Part shown: in pieces, positions 3,819 to 35,311 of the stretch
Layout of the letters: the number at the start of each line of letters is the position of its first letter
How positions within the stretch are numbered: position 1 is the first letter of the stretch
From: Pelotomaculum schinkii
Lineage (GTDB): Bacteria > Bacillota > Desulfotomaculia > Desulfotomaculales > Pelotomaculaceae
Length of the DNA: 64,000 bases
Assembly: GCF_004369205.1 (NCBI RefSeq)
Contig: NZ_QFGA01000001.1
Coordinates: 186,001-250,000, forward strand
Direction: 5' to 3'
Program-made: the position numbers and the translations under genes
Notes under the pieces: generated by a model
Seen by the model: the letters and a program-made list of their open reading frames with translations, nothing else
What the model was told of the DNA's origin: nothing
Databases searched by the model: none

Positions 3819-3842
3819 AACAAATTAGTCAAAGCTTTTTAA

Positions 3843-4439
3843 GATAAGTGACACAGTATCCTAGTCGGACGAACCTTTTTGAAGGCGGGCCTAAAAATCC
3901 GTCAAGGGCACATCGATGAAGTTCCTGGTGCTGGCTATCGACGCCCAGTCGGGGGCTGGTACTGGGAGTTAAGGGGGTGGGGCGGCCTGCAATGGCATGT
4001 GGGACCCGAACCCCGCCCCCGTGGAGACCCAAGTATGTGGGCAGCCATACCAAAATTGGGTGGTCAACTATGGCTTGGGATTAAACCTGCATGTGGTTCA
4101 AGCTGCGTGCAGTGTAGCCTGCCTTGAGTGGTAACGGTGGATTTCAGTTTTTAAGCCAAGCTGAATACGGGCCCGTGTTCAGTCAGGTTATTGATTGAAA
4201 CCCTTACTGCAATAGAGACTAGAAAAGGTGTACTCTGTCGAGGAAAACTCCTAGGCTGTCCGGGCTTACCAGGGCAGGCCGGGGATTGCAGTGTGGACTA
4301 AGTGGTAATCCAGTCCCGGTCGTCAGCGGCCGGAGACAGCTTGAAAGGGAAACCGCCGGTATGGCGACAGCCGGCAGCTTGTCTGGGAAAACCTGCTGGA
4401 CCTAAGCCACAATATTTACCCGGTCTGCTGTCACTTATC
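3843..4439 (+). ncRNA. ole: OLE RNA (ornate large extremophilic RNA)
   Basis: A 597-nt non-coding stretch lies between ispA and oapA, exactly where OLE RNA is known in Bacilli and Clostridia, and at its usual length of about 600 nt. The 5' segment GATAAGTGACA (3843-3853) is fully complementary to the 3' segment TGTCACTTATC (4429-4439), giving the closing stem. GC-rich complementary blocks inside suggest dense folding, and no ORF across it has credible codon use. OLE RNA forms a membrane ribonucleoprotein with OapA and is linked to tolerance of short-chain alcohols, cold and other stresses. Conserved internal motifs were judged by eye, not with a covariance model. Confidence 0.93.
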
Positions 4440-4507
4440 AAATATATAGCTTAACAATACTATACCCTGCAGAAGGACGCGCCAACCATCGCATGAGGTG
4501 ATTTTTT

Positions 4508-29631: not shown

Positions 29632-29640
29632 AATAACTTG

Positions 29641-29671
29641 GAATAACTTGGTGTCTGACACCAAGTTATTC
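29641..29671. repeat. Perfect 15-bp palindrome with 1-nt centre, REP-like
   Basis: GAATAACTTGGTGTC (29641-29655), T, GACACCAAGTTATTC (29657-29671). A direct repeat of the outer AATAACTTG lies just before it (29632-29640). It lacks a T tract, so it is not a normal terminator. The GGTGTCTGACACC core resembles REP-type repeats mobilised by Y1 transposases; that link is a guess. Confidence 0.7.
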
Positions 29672-29733
29672 TTAACAAAGGGTCAATTGGCGGGTTAGTC
29701 AATACTACGTAAGCGTCAAATAAAGCAATCTAT

Positions 29734-29762
29734 TTGACTTTTGCTCCAGTTAGCTTTATTCT
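29734..29762 (+). promoter_or_regulatory. Candidate sigma-A promoter of the fluoride riboswitch/GTPase gene
   Basis: TTGACT (29734-29739) and TATTCT (29757-29762) are 17 bp apart. Transcription would start about 20 bp ahead of the riboswitch aptamer at 29788. Confidence 0.5.
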
Positions 29763-29787
29763 TATATAGTGATTACAATTAAACAAC

Positions 29788-29856
29788 AGGCGATGGAGCT
29801 CGCCTTGTGCCCGAATGGCTGATGGCTCCTGTAAAGTATACTTTACAGGAGCTTTT
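29788..29856 (+). promoter_or_regulatory. Fluoride (crcB-type) riboswitch with intrinsic terminator
   Basis: AGGCGATGGAGCTCGCCT (29788-29805) forms the first stem-loop with the GATG signature; GCC (29809-29811) pairs with GGC (29817-29819) across CGAAT, and then TGATGGCTCCTGT (29820-29832) gives the conserved GCTGATGGCTCCT block that pairs back to GGAGC of the first loop as the pseudoknot. The last block is also the 5' half of a 14-bp terminator stem (29825-29852) followed by TTTT. Fluoride binding should keep the block in the pseudoknot and let transcription proceed. CTGT replaces the usual CTAC. Confidence 0.82.
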
Positions 29857-29900: not shown

Positions 29901-31670
29901 ATGTTGGACCAGTTTGTTTTAAGAAAAAATACTATGATCCAGGTATTGGACCAGGCAGTCGCTTTCGCCAGGCAAAAGGAGAACTCCCTGGCCGCATCGC
30001 TCCTGCTTGAGAGCAGGGAAAGGCTAATCCAGGAAACATTCACTCTTGTTATTTTGGGTGAATTCAAGCGGGGCAAGTCCACTTTTATCAACGCGCTTTT
30101 GGGCGCCCAACTCCTCCCAACCGCGATCGTACCGTTAACAGCCATCCCGACTGTGATTCGTTACGGGGAGAGTCTTGTTGTTTACGCAGTCCACATGAGC
30201 GGTGTCATTGAAGAAATTTCACTGGATCAAATATCCGGTTACGTTACGGAAAAGGGTAACCCCAAAAACACCAAAAAGATCCGTGAGGTCCAGATCCGCT
30301 ACCCCTCGGAATTTCTTGAACAGGGTATAATCCTGGTCGACACGCCAGGGGTGGGTTCGGTTTACCAGCACAACACAGAAGCGGCCTATGCCTATCTGCC
30401 ATACTCAGACGCTGCTGCTTTTATCATTTCCATCGACGCGCCGCTTAGTAAAATTGAACTTGATTACCTGAAAGATATCTCGAAATACGTTAACAAGCTG
30501 TTTTATATCCTGAACAAGGTTGATATAGCCACAGCGGAAGATGTAACTGAAGCCGGCGCTTTTGCTGTGGAAACCTTAAAGTCGCACCTGGGCGAGGGGA
30601 ACTATGAACTGTTACCGATGTCAGCCAGACAGGCCTTGCAGAGCCGGACCGGCGGCGACAGTGCAATATCGTTGGAGGCCAGCGGTATATTGACGTTCGA
30701 AAAAAAACTGGGGAATTTTATCCACAACAACAAGGGCCAGTTAATCCTGGAGGCATCCGCCGCCAGAGCGCTCCGGACAATCGGGGAACTGGAAGTGGAG
30801 CTTCAGCTTTGGCAACGGGCAATGGAAGGTTCATTGGAAGAACTCGACCAAAAAATTGATGCCTTTACAGCTCAGATGGAGTCTTTGGAGCAAGACCGGG
30901 AGGACTCAATTTATCTTCTCTACCGAGAGGTGGAACGCCTGGGAACATCGGTAGGGGAAAACCTCAATGATTTCTTTTCGGTTAAGGCAGATGAGCTGGT
31001 AAAGTTGTTGGAAGAGTACTATCATAAAGAGTCGCCCGGTAAGTCGGCTAAAGAGTTGGCTGTTATTTTAAACCAATACAGCAGGGAACTTATCCTGAGC
31101 GTCCTGGATGAAAAACGCAACGAACAGCGCCTGATCATAAGGGAGCAATTTGAAAAGGTGGCGCTTCGCTTTTTTGGCAGGATTGAAGAAATAGTTGACC
31201 GGATGATGGAGATTTCGGCGGAAATTTTCAACATATCCGTGGATAAGTCGGCATCCAAGGAATACATCCTGGGTTCAAAAAGGTTTTACTTTTACTTTGA
31301 GGAACACCCATCCTTCATTCCCTCATTGGAGACTTTAACAGTGTTGGGTGTGCTCCCAAAAACACTGGTAGGCGGCCGTTTGCTGAAAAATGCTAAAAAC
31401 AAACTTGTAGAACTTTTTGACCGCAACTGCGGCCGTGTCCGTTTCGACCTGGCAGAAGGCTTGAAGGAAAGCGCCAGGGATGTGGCTGGCGATCTAAGGC
31501 TGCGAGCCAACTCAGTGTCCAAAGGACTGCTCGCAGCTATTCATACAGCCAGGTTGGAAAGGGACCTGGGTGAGAAGGAGCGTGCCGAAAGATTGGAAAG
31601 TTGGCGTAAGGAATATGATGAGCTGAGACAGATGAAAGATATGGTTCAGCAAGTTATTGCCTCTCGTTAG
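29901..31670 (+). CDS. Dynamin-family GTPase
   Basis: This 589-residue GTPase has G1 GEFKRGKS at 53-60, the switch threonine in the LPTAIVPLTAIPT region, G3 DTPGVGS near 150, G4 NKVD near 211, and then a long helical part with coiled coils (about 295-400) and a hydrophobic patch (TLTVLGVLPKTLVGGRL) that may touch membrane. This is the layout of bacterial dynamin-like proteins, which remodel or protect membranes. It is the sole gene behind a fluoride riboswitch, which is unusual. It converges with the MutS-like pair. ATG 29901 is used, with GGGGG at 29889-29893. Confidence 0.88.
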   Translation: MLDQFVLRKNTMIQVLDQAVAFARQKENSLAASLLLESRERLIQETFTLVILGEFKRGKSTFINALLGAQLLPTAIVPLTAIPTVIRYGESLVVYAVHMSGVIEEISLDQISGYVTEKGNPKNTKKIREVQIRYPSEFLEQGIILVDTPGVGSVYQHNTEAAYAYLPYSDAAAFIISIDAPLSKIELDYLKDISKYVNKLFYILNKVDIATAEDVTEAGAFAVETLKSHLGEGNYELLPMSARQALQSRTGGDSAISLEASGILTFEKKLGNFIHNNKGQLILEASAARALRTIGELEVELQLWQRAMEGSLEELDQKIDAFTAQMESLEQDREDSIYLLYREVERLGTSVGENLNDFFSVKADELVKLLEEYYHKESPGKSAKELAVILNQYSRELILSVLDEKRNEQRLIIREQFEKVALRFFGRIEEIVDRMMEISAEIFNISVDKSASKEYILGSKRFYFYFEEHPSFIPSLETLTVLGVLPKTLVGGRLLKNAKNKLVELFDRNCGRVRFDLAEGLKESARDVAGDLRLRANSVSKGLLAAIHTARLERDLGEKERAERLESWRKEYDELRQMKDMVQQVIASR

Positions 31671-31962
31671 AAAAACCCTAAGTTCTATTTCATGAGATGC
31701 CTTAACACAATAAGTTTCGGCTTACCGCTGCGTGTCCCAGTCATATATCTGAAGAGAAGCCGGCTGACATATCAACGTCGATATACTCGCTGTGGAGTAC
31801 AGCCGGCTTGCTTTCATTACTGGCCCACTATTTTCAATCACGAGGAGATCGAAGATACCGGTCTGCCGGTTGAGGCTGTGATAGTAACCGGCCAGACCGT
31901 TTTTATTATATCTGAGGGGACTGATAAGGTTCCTGTACTATGTAATCCAACGTGAATTGAAT

Positions 31963-33462
31963 TTAGCCGTTTGTTTCGAAAATCCTGTCATATAAATCTT
32001 TACCAAAACTAGTTTGCAGTGGTTCACCTTCAATTATTTTAAAAGTCCTTTCTCCGCCCGTTTGTCTTTCAGCCCGCAGGAAAATGGCGTTGTCCGTTTG
32101 TTTATCATAAAAACCATGCGCAAAATCATATAAATGCGTAACGAAGAAAACCTTGATGCGTTTTTCCAATAATGCGCAAATTATCTGCCTTGCGATCTCC
32201 GAGCCTTCTCTTTCGTTTGTCGCGGCAAAGGATTCATTGAACAGCAGCAGGGAATCTGCCCTTATATTGTCTACGATATCGCTCATCCTGCTGAGTTCTT
32301 CATCAAGTTTCCCGCTGTTCATGGCAGCGTCTTCTTCCCGCTTGTAATGTGTGAAAAGGCCGTCGCAGATATTGGCACAGAAAGACTCCGCCGCCACAAA
32401 CATACCGCATTGCATCATCAATTGGCACAAACCTATGCTTCGCAAAAAAGTCGATTTGCCGCCCTGGTTGGCGCCTGTGATGATCACCAGGTCTTTATTA
32501 TCAGCATTCACATCGTTGCCCACAACGCTTTGTTCCAAGTTTAAAGCCAGACAGACATCGTATAATCCGCTAAAAGAGTGCCTGCGTTCATTAGGCGCCA
32601 CTGGGACAGGAAAGGACATAGGCTCCCCCTTTTGGGAAAGCTGCCCGTGTAAATTCAAACAGCCTACGTAAAAAGCCAATTCGATCCGCAATACGTTAAA
32701 GAAACTGAGAATATGATCGGTGGACTGGGCGAGCGCGTTGGCGACAAGGTTGATCCCCCTGTCGTTTAATTCCGACAGCGCCCTGGCGCCGTTTTCATCG
32801 CGATCACTGATATATAAGGTGTGAGCTTGCTGTTTTTTCGCAAAGATCCGGGCAATCCAGCTTTGTTTTTTGTCATGTGGTTTACGAAGTATGTAATTGA
32901 TACCTTTATTGCCTTTTCCCAATTCAGCGCTGATCAAAACTCCGTCGCGGAATTCCAGTTCCCTTAAATGGTTTTGGATGACGGCAAAATATTCCTCATC
33001 AAGTTCTTTGTTAATCATCGTGAAAAACGCTGTAAAGCCTTCCGATTCAAATTTATCAGCATGTTCACCGGCTATATTCTTTAGTTTTTTAAGCATGCCC
33101 AAAAACATCTTCAACACATTTATAGCTCTATGCAGTATCGCGGAGGGATATTTGCTGTAAAAACCAAAATAATTTTTTTTCTCGCTTTCAATTGATTCTA
33201 CCGCGATATCGTAGATATCCCTGACTATGGCAGCATTTTTCAGGCAATCTTTAAGAATATCTTGGCGATACAGTATTGTGTCCAGATCATTTAAACCGGA
33301 CAGAAAGGCTTTTCTTACCACTTCAAAAAGAAACCTGTCGCCGAGCGCCATGGCGTTAAACAGCGTGTCCAATTCCAGATCTTGTGTCAGCGCTTGTCCA
33401 TTCACAGGTAATTTCGCCTGCAGATCAAAATCAAGATCTTTATACATGAGAAAAGCTTTCAT
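31963..33462 (-). CDS. MutS-like ATPase (domain V type), second gene of pair
   Basis: This 499-residue protein has the MutS ATPase domain at its C-terminus: Walker A GANQGGKS near residue 328, Walker B LLLFNESFA, and the H-loop region FFVTHLYDF. The N-terminal 300 residues are helical lever/clamp-like; the mismatch-reading domain I is absent, so it is not canonical MutS. Its start overlaps the stop of the upstream MutS-like gene as ATGA, so the two proteins probably form a heterodimer. The unit is controlled by a fluoride riboswitch at 35098-35190. The substrate is unknown. Confidence 0.85.
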   Translation of the reverse strand: MKAFLMYKDLDFDLQAKLPVNGQALTQDLELDTLFNAMALGDRFLFEVVRKAFLSGLNDLDTILYRQDILKDCLKNAAIVRDIYDIAVESIESEKKNYFGFYSKYPSAILHRAINVLKMFLGMLKKLKNIAGEHADKFESEGFTAFFTMINKELDEEYFAVIQNHLRELEFRDGVLISAELGKGNKGINYILRKPHDKKQSWIARIFAKKQQAHTLYISDRDENGARALSELNDRGINLVANALAQSTDHILSFFNVLRIELAFYVGCLNLHGQLSQKGEPMSFPVPVAPNERRHSFSGLYDVCLALNLEQSVVGNDVNADNKDLVIITGANQGGKSTFLRSIGLCQLMMQCGMFVAAESFCANICDGLFTHYKREEDAAMNSGKLDEELSRMSDIVDNIRADSLLLFNESFAATNEREGSEIARQIICALLEKRIKVFFVTHLYDFAHGFYDKQTDNAIFLRAERQTGGERTFKIIEGEPLQTSFGKDLYDRIFETNG

Positions 33463-34994
33463 GATTTAATGCGCTCCTTTATGCAATCGTAGGTAAGTCT
33501 GTACTTTTCGGCAATTGATATCGCGTATATGGGTCCGTTATTAGGCCTTCTTAAAATTTTATAGGTTCGCAATGCTGGGTTATTTGGCACTACCGTGCTG
33601 ACCAGGCTTACGGTTTTCTCGCTTAAAGAAGCCAATTCATCTATGAAAGTTACACAAACGCACAGCAAATCCAATTGTATTATTCTTTCCATTACCTTTT
33701 TACCTAAAAAAATGGCGTCTTTTAAGGTTGTGGAAGTGAAAATCTCATTCATGATGATAATACTGTTTGATGTGGCCTGGTTTAGGATATCGTGAATCCT
33801 GATCAGGTCGTCCTGCAGTTTGCCGCGGAGATTCTTGATGTTTTCTTCTTTCTCAAAATGGGTAAAGAGCCTGTCGAACAGATAGAGTCGCGCTTGTCTG
33901 CCCGGGACGGGACAGCCTATGCCGGCCAGGTAATGCAGTTGTCCGAAAGTACGGGCGAAGGTTGTTTTACCGCCCTGGTTCGGACCGGATACTACAAATA
34001 TGCGCTCCTTGTCTTTCAGGTGAAAATCATTGCACACGACGGACAAATTTTCGGCAATTAGTTTATTGGCCAGGGCTAAATCAAATCCCTCAAAATCATA
34101 AACTTCCTTGTATTCATCTGAAAGCTGCGGGTAACAAAATTTCAGTCCCGCTTGCTTGAATATTGCTATATACTCCAAATAGGCTACGTAGAAATGTATT
34201 TCCCGGTCAAAAACGCCGATCGTTTCATCTAAATAATTGCTGTTTTTAGCGTAAAACTCATCAAGAATTAAAAAAATGTCGGGATACCATTGGGCTACCA
34301 AATCCAGCACTCCAGCTTCAACATGGTTCATATCCACCCAGGTGGAAAATTTAACTCGGTAATCCTTCACCGCTCCTTGTTTAAATTTCTCGAATGTTTC
34401 CACCACTTCGGCGCTGTAATCAATTTCAGATGCATACTTGCTGACTTTGATCCAATTATCCTTAATGAGCAGGCAATATTTAACGGCGGACAAATCGGTT
34501 GTAAGTTTTTTCGTTTCCGCCAGAAGCGATGTGAAAAGGAAGGATTTGGCATAGTTCGTTATATATTCACGAAAGGCCAAGAAGCCGCGCGATTTTAAAT
34601 CTGCCAGGGTTAAATCATTTAGCAGGCAATTAACGGCTTCGCAATAAATTTCTACCGCGTCTAAAAACCATCTTTCCTTCTGGTATTTATAGTAAAGCTT
34701 GCCTGCTTGGGCTAGATGTTCGCGCATTACACGCATTTTTTGCGCAAAGGCCTTTATATGCTCAAAAAAAGTTTTATTTTCAAGATCCATCATTATTTCC
34801 TGACGATACTTGATCGAGTCAATATCTTTGAAGGAAGTGTAAAAAAAAGGTTTTAGATTATATTCCTGCCAACCGGACGTGATGGCGTCTACAATCTGAT
34901 CAAGATTTAAATCAACAAAAAAGTCGGGCGCTTCCAGGGTTTCTTTTTTTATGCTGTCTTCAGTTCTTTCAAATAATATGCTGTGGAAAGCCAT
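33459..34994 (-). CDS. MutS-like ATPase (domain V type), first gene of pair
   Basis: This 511-residue protein has a C-terminal MutS ATPase with Walker A GPNQGGKT near residue 337, Walker B IIIMNEIFTST and a CVTFIDEL switch. As in its partner, domain I is missing. ATG 34994 follows a perfect AGGAGGTG; the frame stays open further upstream to 35060, but that lies inside the leader. The pair differ clearly from each other, so they are ancient paralogues. It is the first gene after the minus-strand fluoride riboswitch. MutS homologues behind this riboswitch class are known, but their function is not. Confidence 0.87.
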   Translation of the reverse strand: MAFHSILFERTEDSIKKETLEAPDFFVDLNLDQIVDAITSGWQEYNLKPFFYTSFKDIDSIKYRQEIMMDLENKTFFEHIKAFAQKMRVMREHLAQAGKLYYKYQKERWFLDAVEIYCEAVNCLLNDLTLADLKSRGFLAFREYITNYAKSFLFTSLLAETKKLTTDLSAVKYCLLIKDNWIKVSKYASEIDYSAEVVETFEKFKQGAVKDYRVKFSTWVDMNHVEAGVLDLVAQWYPDIFLILDEFYAKNSNYLDETIGVFDREIHFYVAYLEYIAIFKQAGLKFCYPQLSDEYKEVYDFEGFDLALANKLIAENLSVVCNDFHLKDKERIFVVSGPNQGGKTTFARTFGQLHYLAGIGCPVPGRQARLYLFDRLFTHFEKEENIKNLRGKLQDDLIRIHDILNQATSNSIIIMNEIFTSTTLKDAIFLGKKVMERIIQLDLLCVCVTFIDELASLSEKTVSLVSTVVPNNPALRTYKILRRPNNGPIYAISIAEKYRLTYDCIKERIKS

Positions 34995-35097
34995 GAAAAA
35001 ACACCTCCTGGCTATGGCTCGGACGCACAATATCAACTCTACCGCTGCGAATGCCCGCATAATGGGAGTTATCAGCCCGGATATTTTATTTTGAGCA

Positions 35098-35190
35098 TAA
35101 AAAAGCTGATAGTCTCTACCTTTTTCTCGTAGAAGCCATCAGCTGTTATCAGCGGTTCGGATTTTTCCAAAGGGGAGCTTCATCCCGTTT
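35098..35190 (-). promoter_or_regulatory. Fluoride (crcB-type) riboswitch with intrinsic terminator
   Basis: Read on the minus strand from 35188: ACGGGATGAAGCTCCCC forms stem 1 with the GATG signature, GAACCGCT is the conserved AACCGC segment, and AGCTGATGGCTTCTAC (ending at 35129) is the 3' block. GAAGC in the first loop pairs with GCTTC to form the pseudoknot. AGCTGAT (35144-35138) also pairs with ATCAGCT (35110-35104), making a terminator that ends in a T run (TTTTTT). It lies about 100 nt ahead of the MutS-like gene at 34994. This is a near-consensus aptamer, including the CTAC end. Confidence 0.92.
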
Positions 35191-35311
35191 GTAACAATGT
35201 AACATTTTTTAATACCGCCTGCAACAACAAATTTCAGCCAATTTCTTGAAAAGTAGATATAAATATAATCATTGAACTAAAGGCTAGAATAGGCAAGCTA
35301 AGCACACTCAC

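Follow-up and report, generated by a model that had tools for sequence, protein, structure and literature searches.

Fluoride riboswitches mark genes that are important under fluoride stress, and exporters, antiporters, enolase and pyrophosphatase have been tied to this stress in that way. The fluoride response was reviewed in 2024 (PMC11139923); this review covers Fluc, CLC-F, Na+/H+ antiporters, pyrophosphatase, enolase, HAD proteins and formate hydrogenlyase, and names no GTPase among the response genes. The association of the crcB motif with mutS was reported in 2010 (PMC2864571). As for bacterial dynamins, IniA is induced by cell-wall drugs and is able to cut membranes (PMC6715688), and DynA of Bacillus subtilis responds to nisin by clustering at the membrane, and also delays lysis by phages (PMC8844932).

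Here, we analyse a locus of Pelotomaculum schinkii at which a fluoride riboswitch aptamer precedes a dynamin gene (table 1); ‘the window’ designates the whole stretch of DNA analysed, i.e. 64 000 nucleotides. No link between fluoride riboswitches and dynamins was found in the searched literature, and none of the papers naming both a fluoride riboswitch and a GTPase dealt with a dynamin link. The locus would thus combine a known switch with a target class undescribed in that literature, the scope of which does not extend to the supplement of Baker 2012, where an earlier listing is possible.

Table 1. Features of the riboswitch–dynamin locus and of the convergent unit (positions in the window).
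Feature	Position	Strand	Evidence or remark
Candidate sigma-70 promoter	29734–29762	+	TTGACT-17 nt-TATTCT; consensus scan
Fluoride riboswitch aptamer (RF01734)	29780–29838	+	cmscan, 37.7 bits, E 7.7e-7
P1 of this aptamer	29789–29792 with 29801–29804	+	GGCG/CGCC
Pseudoknot of this aptamer	29795–29799 with 29825–29829	+	
P3 of this aptamer	29809–29811 with 29817–29819	+	3 bp, GCC/GGC
Linchpin pair of this aptamer	A29822–U29830	+	
Intrinsic terminator hairpin and U-tract	29824–29856	+	terminator scan, RNAfold
Dynamin-like GTPase, 589 aa, BDLP/IniA type	29901–31670	+	Pfam Dynamin_N, E 3.5e-25
MutS_V ATPase 2	31963–33462	−	Pfam MutS_V, E 6.1e-22
MutS_V ATPase 1, behind second riboswitch	33459–35060	−	Pfam MutS_V, E 2.6e-19; start codon uncertain
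Terminator-like hairpin overlapping second aptamer	approx. 35144–35101	−	fold
Second fluoride riboswitch aptamer (RF01734)	35123–35196	−	cmscan, 45.3 bits

The riboswitch and its terminator

The preliminary description had proposed a fluoride riboswitch (Rfam crcB), and the Infernal search bears this out: when the whole window was scanned with cmscan against Rfam 15, the match passed the gathering score of RF01734 (37.7 versus 34 bits) and covered the complete model (1–64 of 64). The GATG loop, the short P3 and the GCTGATGGCTCCT block named in that description were found as stated, along with P1, the AUGGAGCU loop and the GCUGAUGGCUCCUGU block; P3 and the linchpin pair were assigned from the sequence and from the known structure of this riboswitch class. 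Genome-wide (4.4 Mb, 8 contigs), RF01734 is matched only twice, here and at the second aptamer of table 1. A chance match is ruled out by the score above gathering, by the two matches in 4.4 Mb and by the conserved position. A riboswitch of the upstream S-layer gene can also be dismissed, as the aptamer lies 3′ of the stop of that gene and reads into the dynamin gene. The candidate promoter ends 18 nt ahead of the matched leader, such matches being no commoner than in shuffled sequences. Just past the S-layer gene stop, a hairpin (29638–29674) carries the perfect palindrome GGTGTCTGACACC, present in a single copy in the window, with a chance expectation of none.

The terminator hairpin (29824–29853) consists of 13 pairs (12 Watson–Crick and one G–U) with a TATA loop and a U-rich tail, for a stability of approximately −20.4 kcal/mol (RNAfold). 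It is real and overlaps the aptamer, as previously claimed, whereas its description as a ‘perfect 14-bp’ stem was slightly overstated. Its 5′ arm is the 3′ strand of the aptamer, which provides the pseudoknot strand and the linchpin U, so that aptamer and terminator are mutually exclusive and a fluoride-ON logic is likely. Terminators overlapping the motif in this manner have been reported for many crcB RNAs (PMC2864571). The leader is thus likely to be a fluoride-ON transcriptional riboswitch acting by antitermination. Judging by its RNA class and by the way in which the two structures overlap, the nascent leader would form the 13-bp terminator with the CTCCTGT strand of the aptamer when fluoride is absent, and transcription would halt before the dynamin gene; with fluoride and Mg2+ bound, the pseudoknot and the A–U linchpin would retain this strand, the terminator could not form and the dynamin-like GTPase would be produced. 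A GGGGGA stretch lies 6 nt 5′ of the ATG of this gene.

The aptamer ends in CTCCTGT, i.e. in CTGT rather than in the conserved CUAC, as had been noticed before. Moreover, three linker positions are deleted relative to the Rfam consensus, which shortens the P1–P3 linker, and the score is lower than that of most other aptamers. Together with the moderate score of 37.7 bits, these features would fit an aptamer that is degenerate or of altered specificity, its fluoride sensing lost or too weak to matter; we consider this very improbable. Indeed, neither a short linker nor a CTGT tail is confined to this aptamer: among 105 aptamers, the dinucleotide that follows the pseudoknot strand and linchpin U is AC in 81, GC in 11, GT in nine, AT in three and AA in one, so that CTGT is a recurrent end (9/105), as is CTGC (11/105). 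Since AC is not universal, this position reflects common variation and is not excluding. In 105 of 105 aptamers, the pseudoknot strands are complementary and both linchpin bases (A and U) are present, a conservation somewhat inflated by the choice of aptamers by model and pattern, although the covariance model used, R1, which was built from 38 aptamers of the window genome's order, does not model the pseudoknot. In addition, a relative of the same genus has nearly the same leader. The CTGT tail of the window aptamer finds its match in an ACAGG of the window terminator arm, and other CTGT leaders co-change likewise.

The P1 and pseudoknot pairs covary. Over nine pairs in 38 aptamers, 99.7% of cells are paired, a value that falls below 60% when the partner is shifted by one column, and double-sided changes affect 30 cells (8.6 in shuffles). 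A terminator-like hairpin that takes in the 3′ strand of the aptamer was scored for 87 of the 105 aptamers, and several of the others have a hairpin without a clear T-run. The CTGT aptamer may have an altered affinity, but there is no sign here that its ligand has changed, because CTGT recurs naturally and the pseudoknot and A–U linchpin are always kept. As far as its sequence and predicted structure can tell, the window riboswitch is an ordinary member of RF01734.

Conservation of the riboswitch–dynamin pairing

Searching named genomes with the single window protein as query returned no locus, and a homologue alignment returned 80. In the Pelotomaculum family (25 genomes), full-length homologues stand directly behind RF01734 matches wherever the upstream DNA is present and intact. 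At the level of the order, RF01734 reaches gathering just upstream of the dynamin gene in 15 of 20 loci, with sub-gathering matches in others. The riboswitch was detected in all 33 genomes with a strong homologue and in 27 of the 80 without (Fisher p 3e-12, in a test of co-occurrence that ignores phylogeny). The dynamin loci belong to Bacillota (Pelotomaculum, Desulfofundulus, Desulfovirgula, Tepidanaerobacteraceae), Deltaproteobacteria/Desulfobacterota, Nitrospirota, Actinomycetota (Aquicultor, Solincola) and Planctomycetota (Candidatus Brocadia).

With R1, a same-strand aptamer was found within 800 nt upstream of the dynamin gene (median 125 nt) in 64 of the 75 loci with enough upstream DNA, counting three weak or partial matches (L175, L176, L185) and two distant aptamers at 490–680 nt (L157, L180). 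At five further loci, the riboswitch heads an operon with the dynamin as second or third gene (L124, L136, L169, L188, L199), and at six of the 75 no aptamer was found. Because R1 derives from the window genome's order, the model of Rfam itself was also applied to 17 loci, almost all of them non-Bacillota, and passed gathering directly upstream in 14. At 17 control loci, mostly long DynA-type dynamins (approx. 750–1000 aa) of the same genomes, RF01734 was never found.

This wide conservation makes it very probable that the dynamin gene is what the riboswitch regulates, as the preliminary description had supposed without noticing either the breadth of the link or the second riboswitch. A one-off riboswitch in front of an unrelated gene is ruled out by the recurrence of the pairing in at least five phyla. 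The homologues would form a fluoride-response dynamin family of two clades, spread over at least five phyla and mostly over anaerobes.

Several variants of the arrangement were met. In some genomes of the Pelotomaculum family, clades A and B are both represented, by paralogous dynamins approximately 35% identical; at L063, L064, L067, L069 and L079, each paralogue whose upstream DNA is covered has a fluoride riboswitch to itself. These paralogues recall the bacterial dynamins that pair up into hetero-oligomers. In one clade B copy (G014, G015), a TAG stop breaks the reading frame. At L161 (2056–2506, +), two aptamers approximately 400 nt apart precede one dynamin gene, and at L202 (G086) the order is riboswitch, Na+/H+ exchanger, universal stress protein (Usp), riboswitch and then an MFS transporter in the place that the dynamin occupies in relatives of that genome.

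The dynamin and its possible roles

The downstream gene had been read as dynamin-like, which its Pfam match confirms. Its GTP-binding motifs are intact, with a G1 motif written GEFKRGKST, and the key residues of G1 (GxFKRGKxT), G3 (DTPG) and G4 (NKxD) are invariant in an alignment of 21 homologues. The AlphaFold2 model (mean pLDDT 80.6) shows a GTPase domain and long helix bundles, the putative membrane-binding tip (residues 449–485) being modelled at a pLDDT below 50. The nearest solved folds are Nostoc BDLP (2j69; Foldseek E 8.1e-22, profile E 3.3e-36) and mycobacterial IniA (6j72; VIA-align Z 27.1 over 515 residues, rmsd 6.1), and mitofusins and the paired bacterial dynamins 5oxf/5owv come next. 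A neighbouring 87-aa ORF (31692–31955) matched no family and was not counted as a gene.

On sequence grounds, we strongly support the regulation of this dynamin by the fluoride riboswitch; its membrane role is inferred from the fold and from the gene company. The reading that we favour, and which we think probable, is that a fluoride-ON riboswitch induces a membrane-maintenance dynamin of the BDLP/IniA type, belonging to a multi-phylum fluoride-response family. The protein would probably bind the cytoplasmic membrane via the tip of its helix bundle, and its GTP-dependent remodelling of this membrane would help to keep it sealed, or to repair it, under fluoride/HF and acid stress.

The main rival is dosage compensation: fluoride would inhibit the dynamin GTPase through GDP–metal–fluoride transition-state complexes, and the riboswitch would raise the amount of the enzyme. 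Overproduction is the explanation offered for enolase and pyrophosphatase under fluoride riboswitches (PMC11139923). Both fluoride-inhibited enzymes are found under such riboswitches in the same regulons, and GDP-AlFx structures of the dynamin family and of Era are among the fold matches. However, most GTPases of the cell, including the DynA-type dynamins of the same genomes, are devoid of a riboswitch. Furthermore, the homologue is missing from many related genomes and hence is not a housekeeping enzyme there. Compensation thus appears rather unlikely to us.

Second riboswitch, gene company and host genome

The second aptamer precedes a pair of MutS_V ATPases whose genes overlap (the second with the end of the first) and form one transcription unit, convergent with the dynamin gene. 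Their Pfam matches lie in MutS domain V only, and the paired form recurs in relatives (G011, G012). Elsewhere in the window, a full-length OLE RNA was detected (RF01071, 499 bits; 3832–4450, +), OLE RNA being a large structured RNA of extremophiles and anaerobes among the Bacillota.

In relatives, the genes behind fluoride riboswitches include those for Na+/H+ exchangers, universal stress proteins, H+-pyrophosphatase, PAP2, enolase and the MutS-like pair, as well as dihydroxy-acid dehydratase, glutamine synthetase, MFS transporters, NifU-like with GGGtGRT, and DUF6062. Tandem fluoride aptamers approximately 98 nt apart precede a single H+-pyrophosphatase gene and also occur elsewhere (L066, 4047–4201; L065, 2391–2545; L078, 847–1001; all −). 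DUF6062 adjoins the dynamin or sits behind a fluoride riboswitch of its own (L063, L064, L033, L069, L186), a position that makes it a candidate for a role in the fluoride response; a second candidate is a zinc-ribbon HEAT-repeat protein (L188, L186).

In the fetched flanks of the 80 dynamin loci, neighbours comprise a Na+/H+ exchanger (26), Usp (19), enolase (4) and CrcB with DUF190 (3). At L200, the order is riboswitch, Na+/H+ exchanger, Usp, CrcB, DUF190, riboswitch and dynamin. Such neighbours connect the dynamin with fluoride resistance itself. The dynamin as a mere passenger of a Na+/H+ exchanger–Usp operon was rejected, given that these neighbours are limited to 26 and 19 of the 80 loci and that most dynamins have their own aptamer. 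The same proximity, and that to CrcB at L200, would also suit a role other than membrane upkeep, e.g. vesicle formation, or the assembly or placement of the regulon's membrane transporters. We hold this to be quite unlikely, as most loci lack these neighbours and no CrcB to be assisted was found in the host genome.

Indeed, neither Pfam nor protein searches found CrcB in the P. schinkii genome, the Pfam search finding it in 10 of 14 control genomes. The sole CLC protein of this genome has a GSGIP filter motif, presumably that of chloride-type CLC proteins. Accordingly, no known fluoride exporter was recognized, and the host genome apparently lacks one, which sharpens the question of the dynamin's role. 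A bolder form of the membrane-maintenance reading, which we advance only tentatively, is that the riboswitch-controlled dynamin may be central to fluoride resistance, its action being on the membrane and not through export, and that it may here be a main defence together with the MutS-like ATPase pair.

As the pairing recurs in at least five phyla, we suggest that membrane reshaping or repair is an overlooked part of the bacterial response to fluoride. The riboswitch-linked dynamin would add membrane maintenance to this response, and bacterial dynamins, whose roles are mostly unclear, would gain a chemically defined inducer and a physiological context in which they can be tested.

Comparison with known systems

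The window aptamer resembles the RF01734 class in sequence and structure, and differs from it by the short P1–P3 linker and the CTGT end, both present in other natural members. The known fluoride regulon (Fluc/CrcB, CLC-F, Na+/H+ antiporter, pyrophosphatase, enolase, mutS) shares with the dynamin the same RNA and often the same genomes and clusters; known regulons, however, include exporters, whereas none was recognized in the host genome. Nostoc BDLP and IniA resemble the window dynamin in their GTPase motifs and overall predicted fold, and IniA is also close in length, but identity to the two is only approximately 17% and the lipid-binding loop of IniA has no sequence counterpart in the window protein. 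Stress-induced expression is a feature of IniA too, under cell-wall drugs in its case and, for the window dynamin, presumably under the fluoride riboswitch. DynA of B. subtilis is likewise a bacterial dynamin linked to membrane stress (PMC8844932), but proteins of its type are longer fusions of two dynamin units and, in related genomes, are without a fluoride riboswitch. IniA and DynA are the nearest functional precedents for a putative membrane role of the fluoride-linked dynamin.
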